Shown here in pieces: positions 29,632-40,258 of a stretch of 41,808 bases of DNA. The DNA is from Gammaproteobacteria bacterium (GTDB lineage: Bacteria > Pseudomonadota > Gammaproteobacteria > Steroidobacterales > Woeseiaceae), in NCBI GenBank assembly GCA_009937605.1, contig JAACFG010000005.1, positions 1 through 41,808 on the forward strand. Direction: 5' to 3'. The position numbers and the translations under genes were made by a program. The stretch's first letter is position 1; each line of letters opens with the position of its first letter. The notes under the pieces are model-generated. The model was not told the origin of the DNA. It saw nothing but the letters and a program-made list of their open reading frames with translations, and ran no database searches.

Positions 29632-30417
29632 TCAGGTCTGTGCCCCCTCGTTCTTACGGTACGCCATAACGAGCATGATAGCGCCCACGACGATCATCGG
29701 CACGCTCAGGATCTGGCCCATCGTGACCCAGCCCAGCGCCAGGTAGCTCAGGTGCGCATCCGGGACGCGATAGAACTCGACAGAAAACCGGAAGATCCCG
29801 TACAGCAGCAGGAACATTCCCGAAACCGCCATATATGGCCGCGGTTTGGACGAGTACCACCACAACACCACAAACAGAACGAGCCCCTCGAGAAGCGCCT
29901 CGTAGAGCTGTGACGGATGCAGGACCTGGCCGTCAACCATGAACCCCCAGGGCACGTCGGTCGGCTTGCCCCAGAGCTCGCCGTTGATGAAGTTGCCGAT
30001 GCGACCAAAACCCAGGCCGAGTGGCACCATCGGGGCGATAAAATCGGTCATGCGCCACATCGTCAGGCCCAACTTCCGGCCGTACATCCACATCGCGATC
30101 AGTACGCCGGCCAGGCCTCCGTGGAACGACATGCCGCCCTCGGTGATCCTGAAGAGATACAACGGATCGGACAACAGCTGGTCGGTCCCATAGACCAGCG
30201 CGTAGCCGATGCGAGCACCCAGGATGACGCCCAGCATCCCGTAAAAAAGGAGATCATCGACCTGATCCGCCGTGATCGGCGTATCCGCACGCCTCGAGCG
30301 CCGCCTCGCCAGCCACCAGGCCAGCAGGAAGCCGATTACGTACATCAGCCCGTACCAGCGAATCTTGAGGGGCCCAATCGCGAAAATCACCTCATCGATT
30401 TCGGGGTATGTCAGCAT
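29632..30417 (-). CDS. lgt: Phosphatidylglycerol:prolipoprotein diacylglyceryl transferase
   Basis: Lgt adds diacylglycerol to the lipobox cysteine of prolipoproteins in the inner membrane, the first step of lipoprotein maturation. It has 261 residues from the ATG at 30417, and this start aligns with the usual [12 protein letters not shown] opening; a longer frame from 30453 adds 12 residues. About seven membrane helices are visible. Signatures are [26 protein letters not shown] with the essential His, and [13 protein letters not shown]. It is first in lgt-thyA-folA. Predicted clients in this window include RlpA and the PLD-like protein. Confidence 0.97.
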
Positions 30418-30463
30418 GAAAAACAGCTCGCGTGGAAGAGAAGCCGGTATCATAGATCAAACC

Positions 30464-32485
30464 ATGCCAAATCGCCTCGCCAAAGAAACCAGCCCCTACC
30501 TGCAACAGCACGCCGACAACCCCGTCGACTGGTATCCGTGGGGCGACGAGGCGTTCTCTGTCGCACGCTCGACTGGCAAGCCTGTGTTGCTATCGATCGG
30601 CTACTCCGCGTGCCACTGGTGCCACGTCATGGCACATGAGTCATTCGAGGACGATGCGATCGCTGCCGTCATGAACGAATTGTTCGTGAACATCAAAGTC
30701 GATCGCGAGGAACGACCCGATATCGACAAGATCTACCAGACCGCACACCAGTTGATCACGCAGCGCGGCGGCGGATGGCCGCTGACAATGTTCCTGGATG
30801 GCGAAAACCAGCGCCCGTTTTTTGGCGGCACGTATTTTCCGAACGAGGCACGCTACGGCATGCCGGCGTTCAGCGAACTGCTGAAGAACATCGCGAACTT
30901 CTACGCCGACAAACGCGACGACGTACGCGCGCAAAGCGAGAAAATACTCGAGGTCTTCTCGCGGCTCGAGCCGGCACCGGCCGGCGCCGGAAAGACCCTT
31001 ACCGCGGCTCCGCTCACGGCGGCAAGAGAAACGTTCGAGAAGACCTTTGATCGCGAGTACGGCGGCTTCGGCTCTGCACCGAAGTTCCCGCATCCAAGCA
31101 CGATTGACCGTCTCCTGAGGCACTGGCGTAGCACGGCCGACGACCCCGAGCCCGATGTCGAGGCCCTGTTCATGGCGGCGTTGACGCTGGCACGAATGGC
31201 CGAAGGCGGCTTGTTCGATCACGTCGGCGGCGGATTCTATCGCTACTCGGTGGACCGCTATTGGCAGATTCCGCATTTCGAGAAAATGCTCTATGACAAT
31301 GGGCCGCTGCTCGCCATTTACGCACAGGCCAGCATCGCGACCGGCGAGACGCTCTTTGCCGCTACGGCGAACGCCACAGCCGACTGGTTACTCGCCGATA
31401 TGCGGGACGAAAACGGTGGCTTCTACGCTACGCGAGATGCGGATTCGGAGGGCCACGAAGGTTTGTATTACCTGTGGGATCCGGACGTCGTGCGCGAGCT
31501 GCTTGGCAGTGATTACGAGGTTTTTGCCAGCCGTTTCGGCCTGGACGGAGATGCCAATTTCGAGGGACGTTGGCACCTGACTGTACGCCAGCCGATCGGC
31601 GACGACGACGCTGCCCTGATCGACGAGGCGAAGCGCGTTCTGCTCGCCGAAAGAGCGAAACGCGTGGCGCCGGGACGCGATGAGAAACAACTGACCGCCT
31701 GGAATGCGCTGGCGATTCGTGGGCTCGCGATTTCCGGCAGCAGTCTCGAGCGACCGGTACTGATTGATGCGGCCGCCGCTGCAGTCAATTTCCTGCAGAA
31801 AAATCTCGTGCGCAACGGTCGCTTGCTGGCCAGCTACAAGGATGGCGAAGCACGGTTCGATGCTTATCTCGACGATCATGCCTTCCTGCTCGATGCGCTG
31901 CTCGAGCTGCTACAGGCCCGATGGGACACGGGGCATTTGGCGTTTGCTCAGCAAATTGCCGAACTATTGCTCGAGCACTTTGAGGACAAGGCGAATGGCG
32001 GATTCTGGTTCACGGCAAATGACCAGGAACAGCTCATCCATCGGCCCAAACCACTTGCCGATGAAGCCGTGCCGTCCGGGAATGGAATCGCTGCATTTGC
32101 CCTGCAACGCCTCGGCTTCCTGCTTGGTGAGACGCGCTACCTGGATGCTGCCGAACGTACATTGCGCGCCGCCTGGCGTGCGATCGATGAGTACCCGCAC
32201 GGGCACGTGAGCTTGCTCGCGGCGCTCGAAGAGTATCTTGAACACCCCGAGATCGTGGTAATCCGCGGCGACCACGACGACGTCGGTCGCTGGCGCGACT
32301 CAGCGTTGAAAGTCTACGCGCCGAGAAGGTTGGTCTTTGCGATAGCTCGAGATGAAATTAACCTGCCCGGAGCACTTGCCGACCGCGCGCCCGTCGACGG
32401 GGAGACGGTTGCGTACCGGTGTCTCGGCACGCATTGCGAAATGCCCGTTACGACGTGGGAAACACTGGCTGGCCAGCTAGACTGA
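30464..32485 (+). CDS. DUF255 thioredoxin-fold / six-hairpin domain protein (YyaL-like)
   Basis: A 673-residue cytoplasmic protein of the YyaL/SPATA20 family, found from bacteria to mammals, of unknown biochemical function. The N-terminal DUF255 domain is thioredoxin-like and carries [14 protein letters not shown] (Cys50, Cys53) and [24 protein letters not shown] and FFGGTYFP are further hallmarks. The rest, from about residue 190, resembles an alpha/alpha six-hairpin barrel as in N-acylglucosamine epimerases. The CXXC suggests redox or metal chemistry, but no reaction is established. I chose the ATG at 30464; the frame opens upstream inside antisense lgt. Confidence 0.9.
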
Positions 32486-32501: not shown

Positions 32502-33053
32502 CTATTTCGCGAATGCGCGATTCGCCTCTTCAAAGTACGCCACGTTCTTCTCGATATCATACGGCCGCTCCTCGAGACTCTCCGGGTCCCACTCACTGCG
32601 CTTCTGGCTGAAGAAGTCGCCGCCGTAGACGTGAATTGCCCCGGTCAACTTTGCGGTTGGATTCGTCACCGAGTGAATGATCTCTTCGCCCAACGGCCGT
32701 ACATCCTTCGGACCCAGCGACTTGGCGCCAGCGGCCTCGACCCGACCCTTCGCATCGTCCGGTAATCGGCGCCAGAAAATATTGTCCTCACGGCCACCGT
32801 AGACGCCGATGGTTGCCCACATGTTGTGATTATGAGGCATCAGTGTCATTCGCGGTGCCCAGATCACATTCAGGACGGTCAGTTCATCGGAGACATGCAG
32901 CCGCTGAATTCCGGCCCGTTCGGGCTCGCCAAGTGCTTGCAATAGTGCGGCAGGTTCGGCAACTGCGCGCGCCAGAATCTCCCGCACCGCCTTGGTTGGA
33001 GCCACATCGCTGACTGCGGTAGCACAATCCTGGATGAGTTGATCGATGTCCAT
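32502..33053 (-). CDS. Cupin protein, cysteine-dioxygenase-like
   Basis: A 183-residue predicted cytoplasmic cupin. The first cupin box has H74 and H76 in LMPHNHNMWATIGVYGG and the second has H127 in EEIIHSVTNP, the three-histidine pattern of the cysteine/mercaptopropionate dioxygenase superfamily, which uses non-haem Fe(II). A later His (141) is in GAIHVYGGDFF. The substrate is not evident. The ATG at 33053 directly abuts the stop of the M23 peptidase gene, so it is probably the last gene of a protease-M23-cupin transcript. Confidence 0.75.
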   Translation of the reverse strand: MDIDQLIQDCATAVSDVAPTKAVREILARAVAEPAALLQALGEPERAGIQRLHVSDELTVLNVIWAPRMTLMPHNHNMWATIGVYGGREDNIFWRRLPDDAKGRVEAAGAKSLGPKDVRPLGEEIIHSVTNPTAKLTGAIHVYGGDFFSQKRSEWDPESLEERPYDIEKNVAYFEEANRAFAK

Positions 33054-34028
33054 CTACTGGTATGCCGTCAGAGACAATCCGCGCTGCGGGCTGATCGTGC
33101 TGTCGCCCGACCCACGAAACGTCACCGGTATGGACTCTACTCGCATACCCAGGTTGCGCTGCACCGCAAAATGCAGGTGCGGACCGCTCGAAAACCCCGT
33201 GTTACCGGAGTCCGCAATGTACTCGCCGGCTCGCACACGATCGCCCGGATTTACTCGAATCGAATTCCAGTTCAAGTGTGCATAAAGAGCAAATGTGCCG
33301 TCGTCATGCAGGATGCGCACGATGTTTGCGAGGTCCGCATACTGGTCCGCATCCGGGCCACCCCTGAAGTTAGTGCTGGAAACATCGAAGACGATGCCAC
33401 TTCGCGCAGCGACGATGTCGGTGCCGACCGGCATTGCAATATCGACCGCGTGCATGCTGTCGCGCGTCAAGTGTGTCGCGGAGTCCGGATACGCCTGTGT
33501 AATCGGGAAACTCAGACCAACCGAGAACGGCGCACGGTAGCTAACCCCCTCGTCCGGGTTGGCGTCCGGATCACCCGGAAGATACACGTAACGATACTGA
33601 ACGGACGGTGGTGCATTGCCGGTCGCCGGAAGATCGAAAAGCCGGAGCTCATCGCGAGGAGACACCACCCACACCCGGTCTTCGTCGGGATGTGGATAGT
33701 CGATGCCATCGAGCGCATCAATTATGAGCCCGACTTCCATCGGTGCAAAGAAGCGGTTGCGGGCGACAAAGCGGATGGAACTCCCGGTGAACGAATCTTC
33801 GATGACCAACTCACCTTTTCTGATTCGGGAACTGCCAGCGCGCACTTCGGCGCTCTGGCCGTCATCGGGTGGTCGGTCGGAGAATATCCACTCTCCATCG
33901 TCACCACGATATTTGTACATTGTCTGTGCGGACGCGATGCTACACGCGAGCAGCGCCGCGAACAGCAGCAGTGTCGGCAAACGTCGGTCTCGCCTATGGA
34001 CCGAAATCCGTTCGTCTCCAGCCTTCAT
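33054..34028 (-). CDS. Exported M23 metallopeptidase with N-terminal DUF4124
   Basis: A LytM/M23 zinc endopeptidase that is expected to act on peptidoglycan cross-links in the periplasm, or to activate amidases. It has 324 residues from the chosen ATG. A basic n-region (HRRDRR) and core LPTLLLFAALLACSIASA form the signal peptide. A DUF4124-like segment follows (MYKYRGDDGEWIFSDRPP). The catalytic domain has His and Asp in MHAVDIAMP, His in LYAHLNW and the HLH pair in GPHLHFAVQ, so it looks active. ATGs at 34046 and 34028 and TTGs at 34070 and 33980 are possible starts; none has a good ribosome site. The 34028 start overlaps the upstream protease gene by 35 bases. Confidence 0.88.
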   Translation of the reverse strand: MKAGDERISVHRRDRRLPTLLLFAALLACSIASAQTMYKYRGDDGEWIFSDRPPDDGQSAEVRAGSSRIRKGELVIEDSFTGSSIRFVARNRFFAPMEVGLIIDALDGIDYPHPDEDRVWVVSPRDELRLFDLPATGNAPPSVQYRYVYLPGDPDANPDEGVSYRAPFSVGLSFPITQAYPDSATHLTRDSMHAVDIAMPVGTDIVAARSGIVFDVSSTNFRGGPDADQYADLANIVRILHDDGTFALYAHLNWNSIRVNPGDRVRAGEYIADSGNTGFSSGPHLHFAVQRNLGMRVESIPVTFRGSGDSTISPQRGLSLTAYQ

Positions 34029-36792
34029 CAGTGCGGTAGATTTCATACGCTGGCCAGTATTGGGTATCAAGCTTGAGTGTAATCACCTCGACGGCTTCAT
34101 TCCACGTTACCGTCTTCAACCGCACAGACTCGCGATGCCCAATATCCTTCACAGCATCGATGAACGCCTGCAGGTCAGGTGTCGGTATTTCATTGACTTC
34201 GACCACGCGACGCCCGGCCCAAAGGCCATAGCGTGTTGCCGGTGAGCCGTAGCTGAAATAGGCGATGTACACACCCTCTGTCGAAACACCGCGCTGTGCA
34301 GCCATCGCCCGATGCGGATCCTGGATCAGCGCACCGGCCCAGGAGAATGCCCTGTCGACGCCCAAGCCATCAAGTTCGGTAGTCTGTACGGGAATTTCCA
34401 GTGCCTGATCATCTCGCCAGACCGTAACTGTCACTTCGGGCTTCTGGACAGCATTCTCAAGCTCCCGGAAGGACGTAACGACATCACCGTCTATTGCGAG
34501 GATCATGTCTCCGATCTTCAACAATTCCGCTGCCGAGGTTCCTGCCACGATGCGAGTAATACTCAAAGCTCGCCTGCGCACAGGGTTATTTTCCTCGAGT
34601 TGCTCGACCCATTCCTCGTCCACACCCATTTTTCGCGCAGCAAACAATGGCGCGTAAACAAATTCTGCCTCAAGCGAATAGAAAGGCTTGTTCTCGCGCA
34701 CAATATCGACGAATTGCATCGCAACCTCGGAACGGATGCCGCGGTTATACTGCGCTGTTTCGCCACCTGCCTGAACGGCGAAGCTTGACCACGTTGCGAG
34801 GACATTGCCTCGCCTGTTGACCAGTACACCGTCCACATCGCCGGGTGCATTTACGAGGGAGATCCCCTCGATGTTCGCATCCCGAAAGCGCATCGTCCGC
34901 GACAACGGCAACATCAGCGGATCGACCGACGACACCGTACTCTGCTGATGCACGAGCTGGTGATCGCTCTTGATGCCGACAACCCAGACTTCATCGCCAG
35001 GACGTAACGTGTCCGTACTGAATTCAGCCTGCCTGACGGGAGTCGTGCCAATACTTGCCGGATCGTAGGAAACAATTGCGTAGTTGTGCAGGGGGTGTAG
35101 TTGCTCGACTTTGCCAGGAACTTCAAGCGAGCCCGCAAACGTGACTGTCACATCGCCAATGGCGATAGGCACCGTGTTACGGTCGACGAGCACGAAGCCA
35201 CGCTCCTTGTCGACGATCAATCCCGTTCCGTAGTAGTGGCGATCTGCCACCCCCGAAAGGGTGTAGGGCAGATCGAATGTCACGACAACCAGCGACGGCG
35301 CGATCGCCTGAACGATGGGGTCCTTGTACTTCGTCAGCCTCGTACTACTGGCTTCAACCGGTGCCGGCGCCGGACCATCAGCGAGGTCCCTGCATGGCCA
35401 GATACCAAGTACATCGTCGCGCACGCAGCGGCGCGCCGGAAACCACACGCGATCCATCTCGAGCAGGCGGACGACCGAGTTCTTCGGGCTTTCCATCGTC
35501 ACAAAACGTACTCGAGCGCGTTCGCCATCTGCCAGTTGGGCCAACGCGGCTTCGAAATCATCCAGCGTACTGACAGCTTCGCCATCCATCTCGACGATAA
35601 CCGCGCCTCGCGGTATCGCTGCCCTCGACAGCAGGTAACCGGGATTCGCCACGTAGACGCCTTCGGCCTTGCGGTTGTAGTGCCGCGCCTGCTGATACGA
35701 CAACTGGTTGACGATCGCGTCGCCAAATTCGAGGTACTCGGCCGGTGTGATGGAATGCAGATCGTCCACGGGCAGCATTGCAACGATGCGTTTGCCGCCT
35801 CGTTCGAGCTCCATCTCGATCTTCTCGCCCACATGCGAGTCGAGAATGGCCTCGAGCGGCACGAACTGGGTAATCAGCTCGCCGTTTATCCGGATCAGGA
35901 TATCCCCGGGCGCCAACAGCTCGTATGCCGGGGAGTCGGGAATGACTTGCTCGATCGTAAGCATGCCTGTCTGGTCCGGATTCGCTTCGCGCGCAATGCG
36001 CTCCGACTCATCCGTAAGGCCCAGGCGCAGCAATTCATCGTAGGGTTCGCTGCGGAAAGTCGTCTGCAACGTTCCGCGGGTGACCGGATCGCCGTTCTGC
36101 AGTTCACGCAGAGCACGATCGATGCGGTCAAGCGGCAGGAAGAAGCTGCTTGCTGCCGAATTGTTTGCGCCCGCATTCAGCGCGACGACCTGCCCTTCGA
36201 TATTGACAACGGGCGACCCCGACGAACCGCCCGACGTGCCAGACGCGGCCTGAAGGTAGAAAGTGTTGAAGTCGTTGTAGTTGCCGCGCCCGTATTCGGG
36301 AGCCTTGCGATCAAGGCGCGCGATCGTGCCGGCCAGGATGGAAAGCTGCTCACCAGCATCGTTACCGATAACCCGGATCTCCCTGCCGATGCCAGCACCC
36401 TCCGGCACAAGAGGCAGTTCGACCGGTTCGATGTATTTCAGGTCAGCCGGGTCATAGCGGAAGAAGCCGAAGTCGTGTACCGGATCGCGATAGACCGGCG
36501 TCAGGCGCACTTCCTCGTTGTTCCGAAAGACAGCCTCGGCTATCACAGGGCCGGGGGTCACCACGTGCCGATTGGTAAGAATCAGGCCCCGTTCGGCGTC
36601 GACTACAAAACCGGTAGCCTGGCTGGACGCATTCCATTCCGTATCGAAGGCGCGCGTGCTGTCGACACGAATCGAAACAACACCCGATGAGATGCGGTCC
36701 AACGTCGCATTCCAGGCTGTGTCCTCAGCAGCGAGTGCCGGAACACAGAGTGTCAGTGCAGCGAAAGCCGCGAAAAATCTGCCGTGAATCAT
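33994..36792 (-). CDS. Double-domain HtrA/Nma111-like serine protease with PDZ domains
   Basis: A 932-residue exported protease. The signal peptide ends near ALAA. Protease domain one carries His (LTNRHVV, about residue 76), Asp (DPVHDFGFFRYD, about 107) and Ser (GGSSGSPV, about 191), so it looks active. PDZ-type repeats follow at about 265-340 and 370-445. A second protease-fold domain (about 490-695) has lost the triad: RNTV replaces RHVV, HPLHNYAIVSYD has Asn for Asp, and NAPGDVDGV replaces the Ser loop. Two more PDZ segments close the protein. This is the layout of fungal Nma111. The ATG at 36792 has AGGA five bases upstream; the frame opens six codons earlier with TTG. The M23 gene follows with overlap. 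Confidence 0.88.
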   Translation of the reverse strand: MIHGRFFAAFAALTLCVPALAAEDTAWNATLDRISSGVVSIRVDSTRAFDTEWNASSQATGFVVDAERGLILTNRHVVTPGPVIAEAVFRNNEEVRLTPVYRDPVHDFGFFRYDPADLKYIEPVELPLVPEGAGIGREIRVIGNDAGEQLSILAGTIARLDRKAPEYGRGNYNDFNTFYLQAASGTSGGSSGSPVVNIEGQVVALNAGANNSAASSFFLPLDRIDRALRELQNGDPVTRGTLQTTFRSEPYDELLRLGLTDESERIAREANPDQTGMLTIEQVIPDSPAYELLAPGDILIRINGELITQFVPLEAILDSHVGEKIEMELERGGKRIVAMLPVDDLHSITPAEYLEFGDAIVNQLSYQQARHYNRKAEGVYVANPGYLLSRAAIPRGAVIVEMDGEAVSTLDDFEAALAQLADGERARVRFVTMESPKNSVVRLLEMDRVWFPARRCVRDDVLGIWPCRDLADGPAPAPVEASSTRLTKYKDPIVQAIAPSLVVVTFDLPYTLSGVADRHYYGTGLIVDKERGFVLVDRNTVPIAIGDVTVTFAGSLEVPGKVEQLHPLHNYAIVSYDPASIGTTPVRQAEFSTDTLRPGDEVWVVGIKSDHQLVHQQSTVSSVDPLMLPLSRTMRFRDANIEGISLVNAPGDVDGVLVNRRGNVLATWSSFAVQAGGETAQYNRGIRSEVAMQFVDIVRENKPFYSLEAEFVYAPLFAARKMGVDEEWVEQLEENNPVRRRALSITRIVAGTSAAELLKIGDMILAIDGDVVTSFRELENAVQKPEVTVTVWRDDQALEIPVQTTELDGLGVDRAFSWAGALIQDPHRAMAAQRGVSTEGVYIAYFSYGSPATRYGLWAGRRVVEVNEIPTPDLQAFIDAVKDIGHRESVRLKTVTWNEAVEVITLKLDTQYWPAYEIYRTDEGWRRTDFGP

Positions 36793-36928: not shown

Positions 36929-38389
36929 CTACTTCTGGTACCGCAGGTCCAACTCGCGGGCCGCTTTGACGTCGTCGAGGCGGCGCACCGGCATTGTGTA
37001 TGGCGCCTCCTTGTATTGAACACCGTCATCGCGCGCCGCTTTGGCTATGTCGATCATCGCCGCCATGAAATTGTCGAGCGTTTCCTTGCTCTCCGTTTCA
37101 GTCGGCTCAATGAGCAGGCATTCGGGCACAAGCAGCGGGAAATACGTCGTGGGTGCGTGGAAATTGCGATCAAGCAGCGCCTTGGCGACGTCCATCGCCG
37201 TAAGTTGAAATTCCTTGGCCTCATGCTTGAGCGTCACGATGAATTCGTGGCTCGCACGGCGCTCTGGAAAAGCGAGTTCGAAGCCGGCATCACGCAGGCG
37301 TGCCATCAGATAGTTCGCGTTCAGCGTCGCGTACTCCGCAACGCGCTCCATGCCGTCGCGACCCAGCATTCGCATATAGACGTACGCGCGCAACAATACG
37401 CCGGAATTGCCCATGAATCCGGAGAGGCGCCCAATGCTCTGTGGCAGATCTTCTTCCTGTGCCCAGTCATAAACCACCCCGTCATCGACTTCTTTCTGCG
37501 TCACAACGGGTATCGGCATGAACGGCAGCAGCCGTTTGTTCACACCTACGGCGCCGGAACCCGGGCCGCCACCGCCGTGCGGTGTTGAAAACGTCTTGTG
37601 CAGGTTCATGTGAATGACGTCAAAGTCCATATCGCCCGGACGAACCTTACCGAGAATGGCGTTGAGGTTGGCGCCGTCGTAGTACAGCAGCCCACCCGCG
37701 TCATGGACCATATCGGCAATGTCCTTGATGTGGCGTTCAAACACGCCAAGTGTCGACGGGTTGGTCAGCATGATGCCCGCCGTCTTTGGTCCGAGGACTG
37801 CCTTCAGCGCGTCCATATCGACGTCGCCATCCGGTCCCGTCGGAATCTCCTTGACCACACAACCACACATAGTCGCGGTCGCCGGATTAGTGCCATGTGC
37901 AGCGTCCGGAACGATGATTTCGTCGCGTTCCGTATCGCCACGAGATTCGTGATACGCCTTGATCATCGCAACGCCCGCCAGTTCACCCTGCGCACCGGCC
38001 ATCGGCGTCAGCGATACGCCTTTCATGCCCGTTACGTCCTTGAGCATCTCCTGCAATTCGTACATGCAGGTTAGAAATCCCTGGCCGTGGCTGACCGGGC
38101 CCAGAGGGTGCCGGCCCGCAAACTCAGGCAATAATGCGAGCGCGTTACAGGCACGCGGGTTGTACTTCATCGTGCACGATCCCAGCGGGTAAAACTGCGT
38201 GTCGATAGAGAAGTTCTTTTGCGACAACCGCGTGTAGTGCCTCACGGTCTGCAGTTCAGAGGCCTCCGGCAGGCGCGGTTTGTCGCTGCGGAGAAACTGC
38301 TCCGGGATCGACGTGATGTGATCGTCACCGGGAGCCTGTGCGAAAGCGCGGCGACCGCCACGCGATTTCTCAAAAATCAGTTCACTCAT
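36929..38389 (-). CDS. gcvPB: Glycine decarboxylase P-protein subunit 2
   Basis: The PLP-bearing half of the two-subunit glycine decarboxylase, which releases CO2 from glycine and passes aminomethyl to lipoyl-GcvH. It has 486 residues. The PLP lysine is K265 in [29 protein letters not shown] and [11 protein letters not shown] are family motifs. It ends near [11 protein letters not shown]. The last gene of the gcv run, it starts eight bases inside the 3' end of the tpx-like gene. The split GcvPA/GcvPB form differs from the single-chain GcvP of E. coli. Confidence 0.97.
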
Positions 38390-38912
38390 CTATTTCAATT
38401 CCCAACGCGCGGAAAGCCGACGAATAGTCGGGCTCCGTTGTAATATCTTCTATGTGTTCGCGGTGTACGACCGTGTTGTTCTCGTCGAGAACGACGACTG
38501 CACGCGAGAACATGCCCGCAAGCGGTCCATCCATGATCTGGACACCGTAATTTTCACCAAAGCCGGCATGGCGAATGGCTGACAAGCCCTCGACTTTTTG
38601 CAAATCGTGCTGCTCCCGGAAGCGCTTGTGCGCAAACGGCAAATCGTAAGACACCATGAGCAAAGCAAGATCATCCTGACCGCTGCCGTAACGGTCGAAC
38701 TTGATAACCGAATTTGCGCACACGTCAGTATCGACACTAATAAAGATGTTCATGATCTTGCGCATGCCGGTCCAGTTCGCGAGCGACACGTCCTGCAGCT
38801 TCGTATTGACAAGCGACACGTCGGGTGCAGAACTGCCGACGCGTGGCAACTCGCCCCAGGTCTGGTAGCTCCCGTTATCGAAGAGAATCCTGGCGGCGAT
38901 CGTTCCCGACAT
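38382..38912 (-). CDS. Single-cysteine Tpx-like peroxiredoxin inside the gcv operon
   Basis: A 176-residue thiol peroxidase (Tpx) family protein. It keeps the fold motifs [30 protein letters not shown] with the peroxidatic Cys (C65), [32 protein letters not shown] and the C-terminal EDITTEPDY. Two hallmark residues are changed: the Pro of PxxxTxxC is Ile58, and the resolving Cys after LPFA-KRF is Arg (about 99). C65 is the only cysteine, so it could work only as a 1-Cys enzyme or as a non-catalytic sensor. The ATG at 38912 shares a base with the gcvPA TGA, and its stop overlaps the gcvPB start by eight bases, so it is translationally coupled within the operon. Confidence 0.88.
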
Positions 38913-40258
38913 CAGCTCATTGCCTCGGCATACGCGGCGATGCACGCATCGATGTCTGTACCGGTCTTTGTTTCAGTCGCGCAAATAAGCACAGCGTCGC
39001 AACCCGCGTCCGCTGTCAGGTCGTAACCGCCCAGGATACCTTTCGATGCCAGGGTCTCGAGCACCGGCGCCACCGGGCGATCCAGTTTGAGTGCGACCTC
39101 GTGGAAGTACGGGCCCTCGTACAGACGCTCGATTCCATCGATTGCGCACAGACCATCAACCAGCCGGGTCGTGTTGGCGTGCGACATCTGTGCGACGCGC
39201 GCGATGCCTTCGGCACCCAGCAATGACATGTAAATCGTTGCCGCTGTGACCATGAGTCCCTGGTTCGTGCAGATGTTCGACGTCGCTTTGGAACGGCGGA
39301 TATGCTGCTCGCGCGCCTGCAGTGTCAGGGCAAAGCCGGGATTGCCGTCGAGATCCGTTGTGCGGCCCACGATGCGTCCAGGCATTTGCCTGACGTGCTT
39401 CTGCTTACAGGTCATGTAGCCGAAATACGGCCCACCCGAGGACAGGGGTACGCCCAGCGGCTGGCCCTCGCCGCACGCGATATCGACGCCCAGCTCGCCC
39501 CAGTGCCCTGGCGCCTTGAGGATCGCGAGCGACATCGGATTGGCTATGCCGATAGCGAAGGCTCCCTGCTCGTGCGCCCAGTCGGTGAGCCGATCGACGT
39601 CCTCGAGCGTGCCGGGGAAAGTCGGCTGCTGCATCACGACAGCCACGGGTTCCTGTCCTTCGGGCAGCTGGTCAAACGCGACATTGCCGGTCACTGCGTC
39701 GACCGGTAACCACTCGAACTTCAGTCCCTGGCTCCCGGCAATAGCTTCGGCCACGTGCTCGTACACAGGGTTCACGCCGGGGGCGAGTAACACGAGTCCC
39801 GACTTGACCTTCCGATTGGCTCTGACGGCCATAAGTGCGGCCTCAGCAAGACCCGATGCGCCGTCGTACAGCGAGGCGTTACTTACATCGAGCCCCGTCA
39901 ATTCGGTGATCATCGTCTGGTATTCGTAGATCGTCTGCAACGTGCCCTGGCTTGCCTCCGCCTGGTACGGCGTATACGCGGAATAGAACTCGCCACGCGT
40001 CGCAATGTCCCAGACGGCGGTCGGGATGTGGTGCTCGTAGGCGCCAGCGCCGATGAAGCACATTGGCGAGCCATCCATGTGGGCACGCTCACGCATCAAT
40101 CGCGAAATTTCCATCTCGCTGAGCGCCTCGGGGACACCGTGCAGATGATCGATGCGCAGCGCCGCCGGTATCTCGTCAAACAGGTCTTCGATTGAGTCCG
40201 CGCCGATGGCCGCGAGCATTTCCCGAGTGTCTTTCTCGGTGTGGGGAATGAAAGGCAT
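38912..40258 (-). CDS. gcvPA: Glycine decarboxylase P-protein subunit 1
   Basis: The partner of GcvPB in the heterotetrameric P-protein of the glycine cleavage system. It has 448 residues and starts [15 protein letters not shown], typical of the family. Further signatures are [49 protein letters not shown] in pieces, and [16 protein letters not shown]. It lacks the PLP lysine, which is in GcvPB. It lies 24 bases after gcvH and runs directly into the tpx-like gene with a TGATG junction. Confidence 0.97.

Follow-up and report, generated by a model that had tools for sequence, protein, structure and literature searches.

A predicted periplasmic tandem HtrA protease of Woeseiaceae with one active and one inactive protease domain, and its probable kinship with eukaryotic DEG7 and Nma111

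Introduction

Tandem HtrA proteases that pair one active with one inactive protease domain are described from eukaryotes in the literature that we found, and bacterial members may already stand in databases. Plant DEG7, a clade III Deg/HtrA protease with the plan PD-PDZ-PDZ-PDia-PDZ-PDZ, is reported to be stromal, and its inactive domain in Arabidopsis (AtDEG7) is said in a passage of PMC3473262, citing Schuhmann 2011, to mediate trimerisation. Yeast Nma111/Ynm3 follows the same plan and is nuclear (PMC11596484); a statement in PMC4877387 that cites Padmanabhan 2009 credits it with chaperone activity. A 2019 survey, which cites acquisition of HtrA from the alphaproteobacterial endosymbiont, assigned PDZ_1 to a few fungi and archaea (PMC6411480).

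Here we describe a bacterial protein of this tandem plan. It has the HtrA protease and PDZ fold in common with DegP, DegQ and DegS, and probably also their periplasmic location, but these have a single protease domain and form a clade separate from the tandem halves.

Results

Gene and domain organization

The window is the whole stretch of DNA that was analysed, 41,808 nucleotides of contig JAACFG010000005.1 (assembly GCA_009937605.1). Its source is a draft genome of 3.12 Mb whose nearest named relatives are Woeseiaceae (Gammaproteobacteria); the relatives of the host are Woeseiaceae of marine sediments. The tandem protease is encoded by an intact open reading frame on the minus strand, with its ATG at 36792 and its stop codon ending at 33994. 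Pfam matched the 932-aa protein with Trypsin_2 in two stretches, PDZ_6 in four and PDZ_1 (PF12812) in two, the last at 82.7 bits against a cut-off of 28, while the score with the Do-family model TIGR02037 (DegP/DegQ) was 142.6 bits and did not reach the cut-off of 416.2. The initial annotation had described a 932-residue exported protein with an intact His-Asp-Ser domain, two PDZ segments, a second domain devoid of the triad and two further PDZ segments. The open reading frame, Pfam and alignments agree on this layout, and both motifs that it had singled out, QAASGTSGGSSGSPVVNI around the catalytic Ser and LHPLHNYAIVSYD in the second domain, are present in the translation. The features are as follows.

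33994..36792, minus strand: whole gene, predicted exported tandem HtrA protease, 932 aa (open reading frame and translation, Pfam, profile match 1451 bits)
36730..36792, minus strand: putative N-terminal signal peptide, residues 1-21, MIHGRFFAAFAALTLCVPALA (read from the sequence; like the hydrophobic N-termini of most homologues)
36073..36714, minus strand: protease domain 1, predicted active, residues 27-240 (Trypsin_2, invariant triad, HtrA fold at Z about 23)
36565-36567, 36472-36474 and 36220-36222, minus strand: triad codons of domain 1, H76, D107 and S191 (932-aa numbering)
35764..36063, minus strand: PDZ 1, residues 244-343 (PDZ_6; secondary structure of the model)
35452..35739, minus strand: PDZ 2, of PDZ_1 (PF12812) type, residues 352-447 (PF12812; genome match 35527-35754)
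35392..35427, minus strand: conserved cysteine pair C456 and C467, probable disulfide (homologue alignments; neighbouring strands in the model)
34693..35331, minus strand: protease-fold domain 2, pseudoprotease, residues 488-700 (PF13365 match 34795-35184; pLDDT 90.6; Z 23.3; pseudo-triad fixed in 52 of 52)
35176-35178, 35083-35085 and 34831-34833, minus strand: pseudo-triad codons of domain 2, N539, N570 and D654
34369..34680, minus strand: PDZ 3, residues 705-808 (Pfam PDZ_2/PDZ stretches; model)
34063..34353, minus strand: PDZ 4, second PDZ_1-type domain, residues 814-910 (PF12812 match 34138-34356)
33054..34043, minus strand: downstream neighbour, M23 peptidase with DUF4124, not part of the protease (Pfam; overlaps the 3' end of the tandem gene)

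Active and inactive protease domains

Domain 1 was the most conserved part of the protein. H76, D107 and S191 showed no variation among diverse tandem homologues (33 of 33) or closer ones (52 of 52), and a set of 17 diverse homologues gave the same picture. W27, which opens the domain, was invariant in all homologues aligned, and no tryptophan was found in the matching stretch of domain 2 in the rows inspected. At the positions corresponding to the triad, domain 2 has N539, N570 and D654, all three catalytic residues being absent, and this N-N-D trio was fixed in the 52 close homologues. Of the 33 diverse homologues, 29 had N, 3 had D and 1 had T at the His position; 32 had N and 1 had D at the Asp position; and 23 had D, 8 had G, 1 had S and 1 had T at the Ser position. 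Within these homologue sets, then, the His is always lost and the Asp almost always replaced by Asn, with drift at the third position. Judged from its residues, domain 2 cannot use a His-Asp-Ser mechanism, yet it is strongly conserved.

The full-length structural model had a mean pLDDT of 83, with weak loops (pLDDT under 50) around the active site of domain 1 at residues 155-187 and 210-215; the second half modelled alone reached 90.6. VIA-align placed residues 17-349 and 489-808 or 489-907 onto DegP, DegQ, DegS, HtrA1 and Deg9 with Z about 20-23, and the second half alone superposed on HtrA structures at Z 23.3. The superposition on DegP that had been proposed at the outset thus gave an HtrA fit for both halves (Z about 23), and in the models domain 2 is a complete HtrA fold.

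Export and cysteine pair

By eye, the N-terminus reads as a Sec-type signal peptide, and hydrophobic N-termini are found in most bacterial homologues, with ambiguous starts in a few (L041, L032). C456 and C467 are cysteines in all 33 diverse and all 52 closer bacterial homologues and lie on neighbouring strands in the full-length model, where they probably form a disulfide. The signal peptide and the invariant pair together fit export to an oxidising periplasm, and we infer that the tandem protein is secreted there. One homologue (L031) has a lipobox-like N-terminus (LFLTSC), which suggests a membrane-anchored lipoprotein form.

Genomic neighbourhood

A glycine cleavage operon lies upstream of the tandem gene, with gcvPB present in 73 of 80 relatives' loci at a gap of most often 60-250 bases; in the window, the 136-base gap upstream of the gene yielded no sigma-70 promoter or terminator pattern. 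In 47 of the 80 loci the M23 peptidase gene comes directly after the tandem gene, and in about half of those 47 the two overlap; they are probably co-transcribed. We counted the M23 gene, which encodes an envelope peptidase, as support for reading the tandem gene as an envelope protease. The overlap pattern itself is kept in many Woeseiaceae loci. Three other genes nearby were recorded: a redoxin/peroxiredoxin-like gene (38382-38945, minus strand) inside the glycine cleavage operon, between two P-protein subunit genes (52 of 80 loci); a 183-aa cupin-like frame (32502-33053, minus strand) without a Pfam match (only 3 of 80); and, on the opposite strand, a gene for a DUF255 thioredoxin-like (DsbH) protein (30272-32485, plus strand), located close to the tandem protease gene in 41 of the 80 loci.

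Comparison with DEG7 and Nma111, and proposed function

The yeast Nma111 and Arabidopsis DEG7 sequences used throughout are approximate versions and not database records, set down when the bacterial sequences were already known; the DEG7 one has the published length of 1097 aa, longer than the 932 aa of the bacterial protein. In this form, AtDEG7 was ~48% identical to the bacterial protein over the first half, and it differed in having neither a bacterial signal peptide nor the cysteine pair and in keeping Ser at the third pseudo-triad position. The yeast sequence in this approximate form aligned end to end at ~38% identity, contained PF12812 twice, likewise lacked the cysteine pair, and had R-N-S where the bacterial protein has N-N-D. 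As to the check proposed at the outset, whether bacterial and fungal proteins lose the same triad residues, His and Asp (to Asn) are lost in both, and the third position is Ser in the approximate eukaryotic sequences.

Clade III proteins are about 1000 aa long with the order PD-PDZ-PDZ-PD-PDZ-PDZ, and the bacterial protein has this order in 932 aa, with His-Asp-Ser in the first domain, no triad in the second, and PDZ_1 (PF12812). The Nma111-like layout, with a complete triad in the first half and none in the second, was part of the original reading and is borne out by Pfam, alignments and models alike. DegP/Q-like and DegS-like genes are present elsewhere in the same genome, so the tandem protein is a separate, third HtrA. 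We consider it probable that this is a bacterial, exported member of clade III (DEG7/Nma111), a periplasmic protease that carries a pseudoprotease scaffold. Its PDZ domains would capture misfolded envelope proteins in the periplasm and domain 1 would cleave them, as a quality-control protease. If plant DEG7 is a guide, the pseudoprotease domain together with its PDZ domains might serve as a scaffold for oligomerisation and substrate holding, and this half may possibly also have chaperone activity. A protein acting mainly as a periplasmic chaperone or regulator, with proteolysis minor, would suit the four PDZ domains and the activity reported for yeast Nma111, but it is an unlikely reading given that domain 1 is the best conserved part and its triad invariant.

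Distribution

Of 60 relatives searched with PF12812, 58 had the tandem protein; the two genomes in which the gene was not found are G023 (84% complete) and G048 (a small genome of 1.4 Mb). In a class-wide sample, 16 of 274 genomes (~6%) combined a PF12812 match over the cut-off with a frame at least about 930 aa long, and outside the order the gene has a patchy distribution within the class. At least 429 coding relatives were confirmed in a scan of GTDB contigs. We also used a full-length profile, which gave all 15 known tandem genomes a score of at least 1100 bits and other HtrAs at most 79 bits. With it, the tandem form was absent from the 78 genomes examined in a different class and, with two candidates per genome scored, from 337 genomes of another large class, presumably Alphaproteobacteria to judge by its size. 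Sampling beyond Pseudomonadota consisted of 14 control genomes. Among the plasmid matches listed there was no tandem form, only single HtrAs at 23-29% identity.

Phylogeny and origin of the tandem form

A tree was built from 20 N-halves, 20 C-halves and 18 single HtrAs, with the yeast and Arabidopsis halves included. The N-halves formed one clade (100/99) and the C-halves another (100/100), both apart from the single HtrAs, and the approximate Nma111 and DEG7 halves fell within the matching clades with the same support. One clade for each half fits a single origin of the tandem layout; the long branch to the C-halves leaves room for a fusion of two old HtrAs. The outcome named in advance as speaking against kinship with Nma111, separate DegP-type duplications for each half, is not what the tree gave, the eukaryotic part of that result depending on the approximate sequences. 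Shared ancestry of the bacterial and eukaryotic tandem forms is accordingly likely on these approximate eukaryotic sequences.

An AU test did not reject bacterial halves as clades apart from the eukaryotic ones (p 0.216 and 0.401, with the approximate sequences), a result compatible with transfer between bacteria and eukaryotes in either direction. We tentatively suggest, as one possibility short of an even chance, that Nma111/DEG7 derives from a gammaproteobacterial exported tandem protease and not via the mitochondrial alphaproteobacterial ancestor, with export and the disulfide lost later and the protein moved to nucleus or plastid. The reverse course, a transfer of the gene from a eukaryote into bacteria followed by the gain of a signal peptide, is permitted by the AU test and would suit the patchiness outside the order, but it is quite improbable: the gene is near-universal in one order and the bacterial homologues are very divergent (down to about 38% identity), which together suggest long residence in bacteria. 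It is very unlikely that an ordinary DegP/DegQ was duplicated independently in this lineage and came to resemble Nma111 by convergence. Both halves do have ordinary HtrA folds, and the nearest solved structures by sequence (PDB sequences) are single HtrAs; against this stand the separation of the halves from all 18 single HtrAs (100/100, one origin each) and the PF12812 scores, 192 bits for the approximate yeast sequence and 83 for the window protein, with most single HtrAs under the cut-off.

Selection on the second half

When the window gene was compared with 13 relatives, domain 2 gave pN of 0.08-0.18 against pS of 0.64-0.83, domain 1 was tighter (pN 0.04-0.11), and pN was much smaller than pS in every domain, a large contrast; with synonymous sites near saturation, exact ratios are not quoted. 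Together with the presence of the protein in nearly all of the 60 relatives, this places the tandem frame far from chance. The term "decayed" first applied to the second domain was wrong, because the domain is conserved and under purifying selection, with N-N-D fixed throughout the close homologues; since nearly all close relatives keep the tandem form, the "dead" half is maintained as a pseudoprotease. That the second half is a decaying, functionless remnant is hardly credible: loss of all three triad residues and the longer branches of the C-halves would agree with it, but domain 2 and PDZ 3-4 are under strong purifying selection, the pseudo-triad is fixed and full length is retained across the order, all of which refutes it unless synonymous saturation misleads.

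Discussion

The tandem protein is a known type of protease, but in a compartment and a lineage for which we found no description in the literature. The bacterial form makes the origin of Nma111 and DEG7 testable by phylogeny, and, as a widespread form that is probably periplasmic, it would offer a simple system for asking what the inactive half does.
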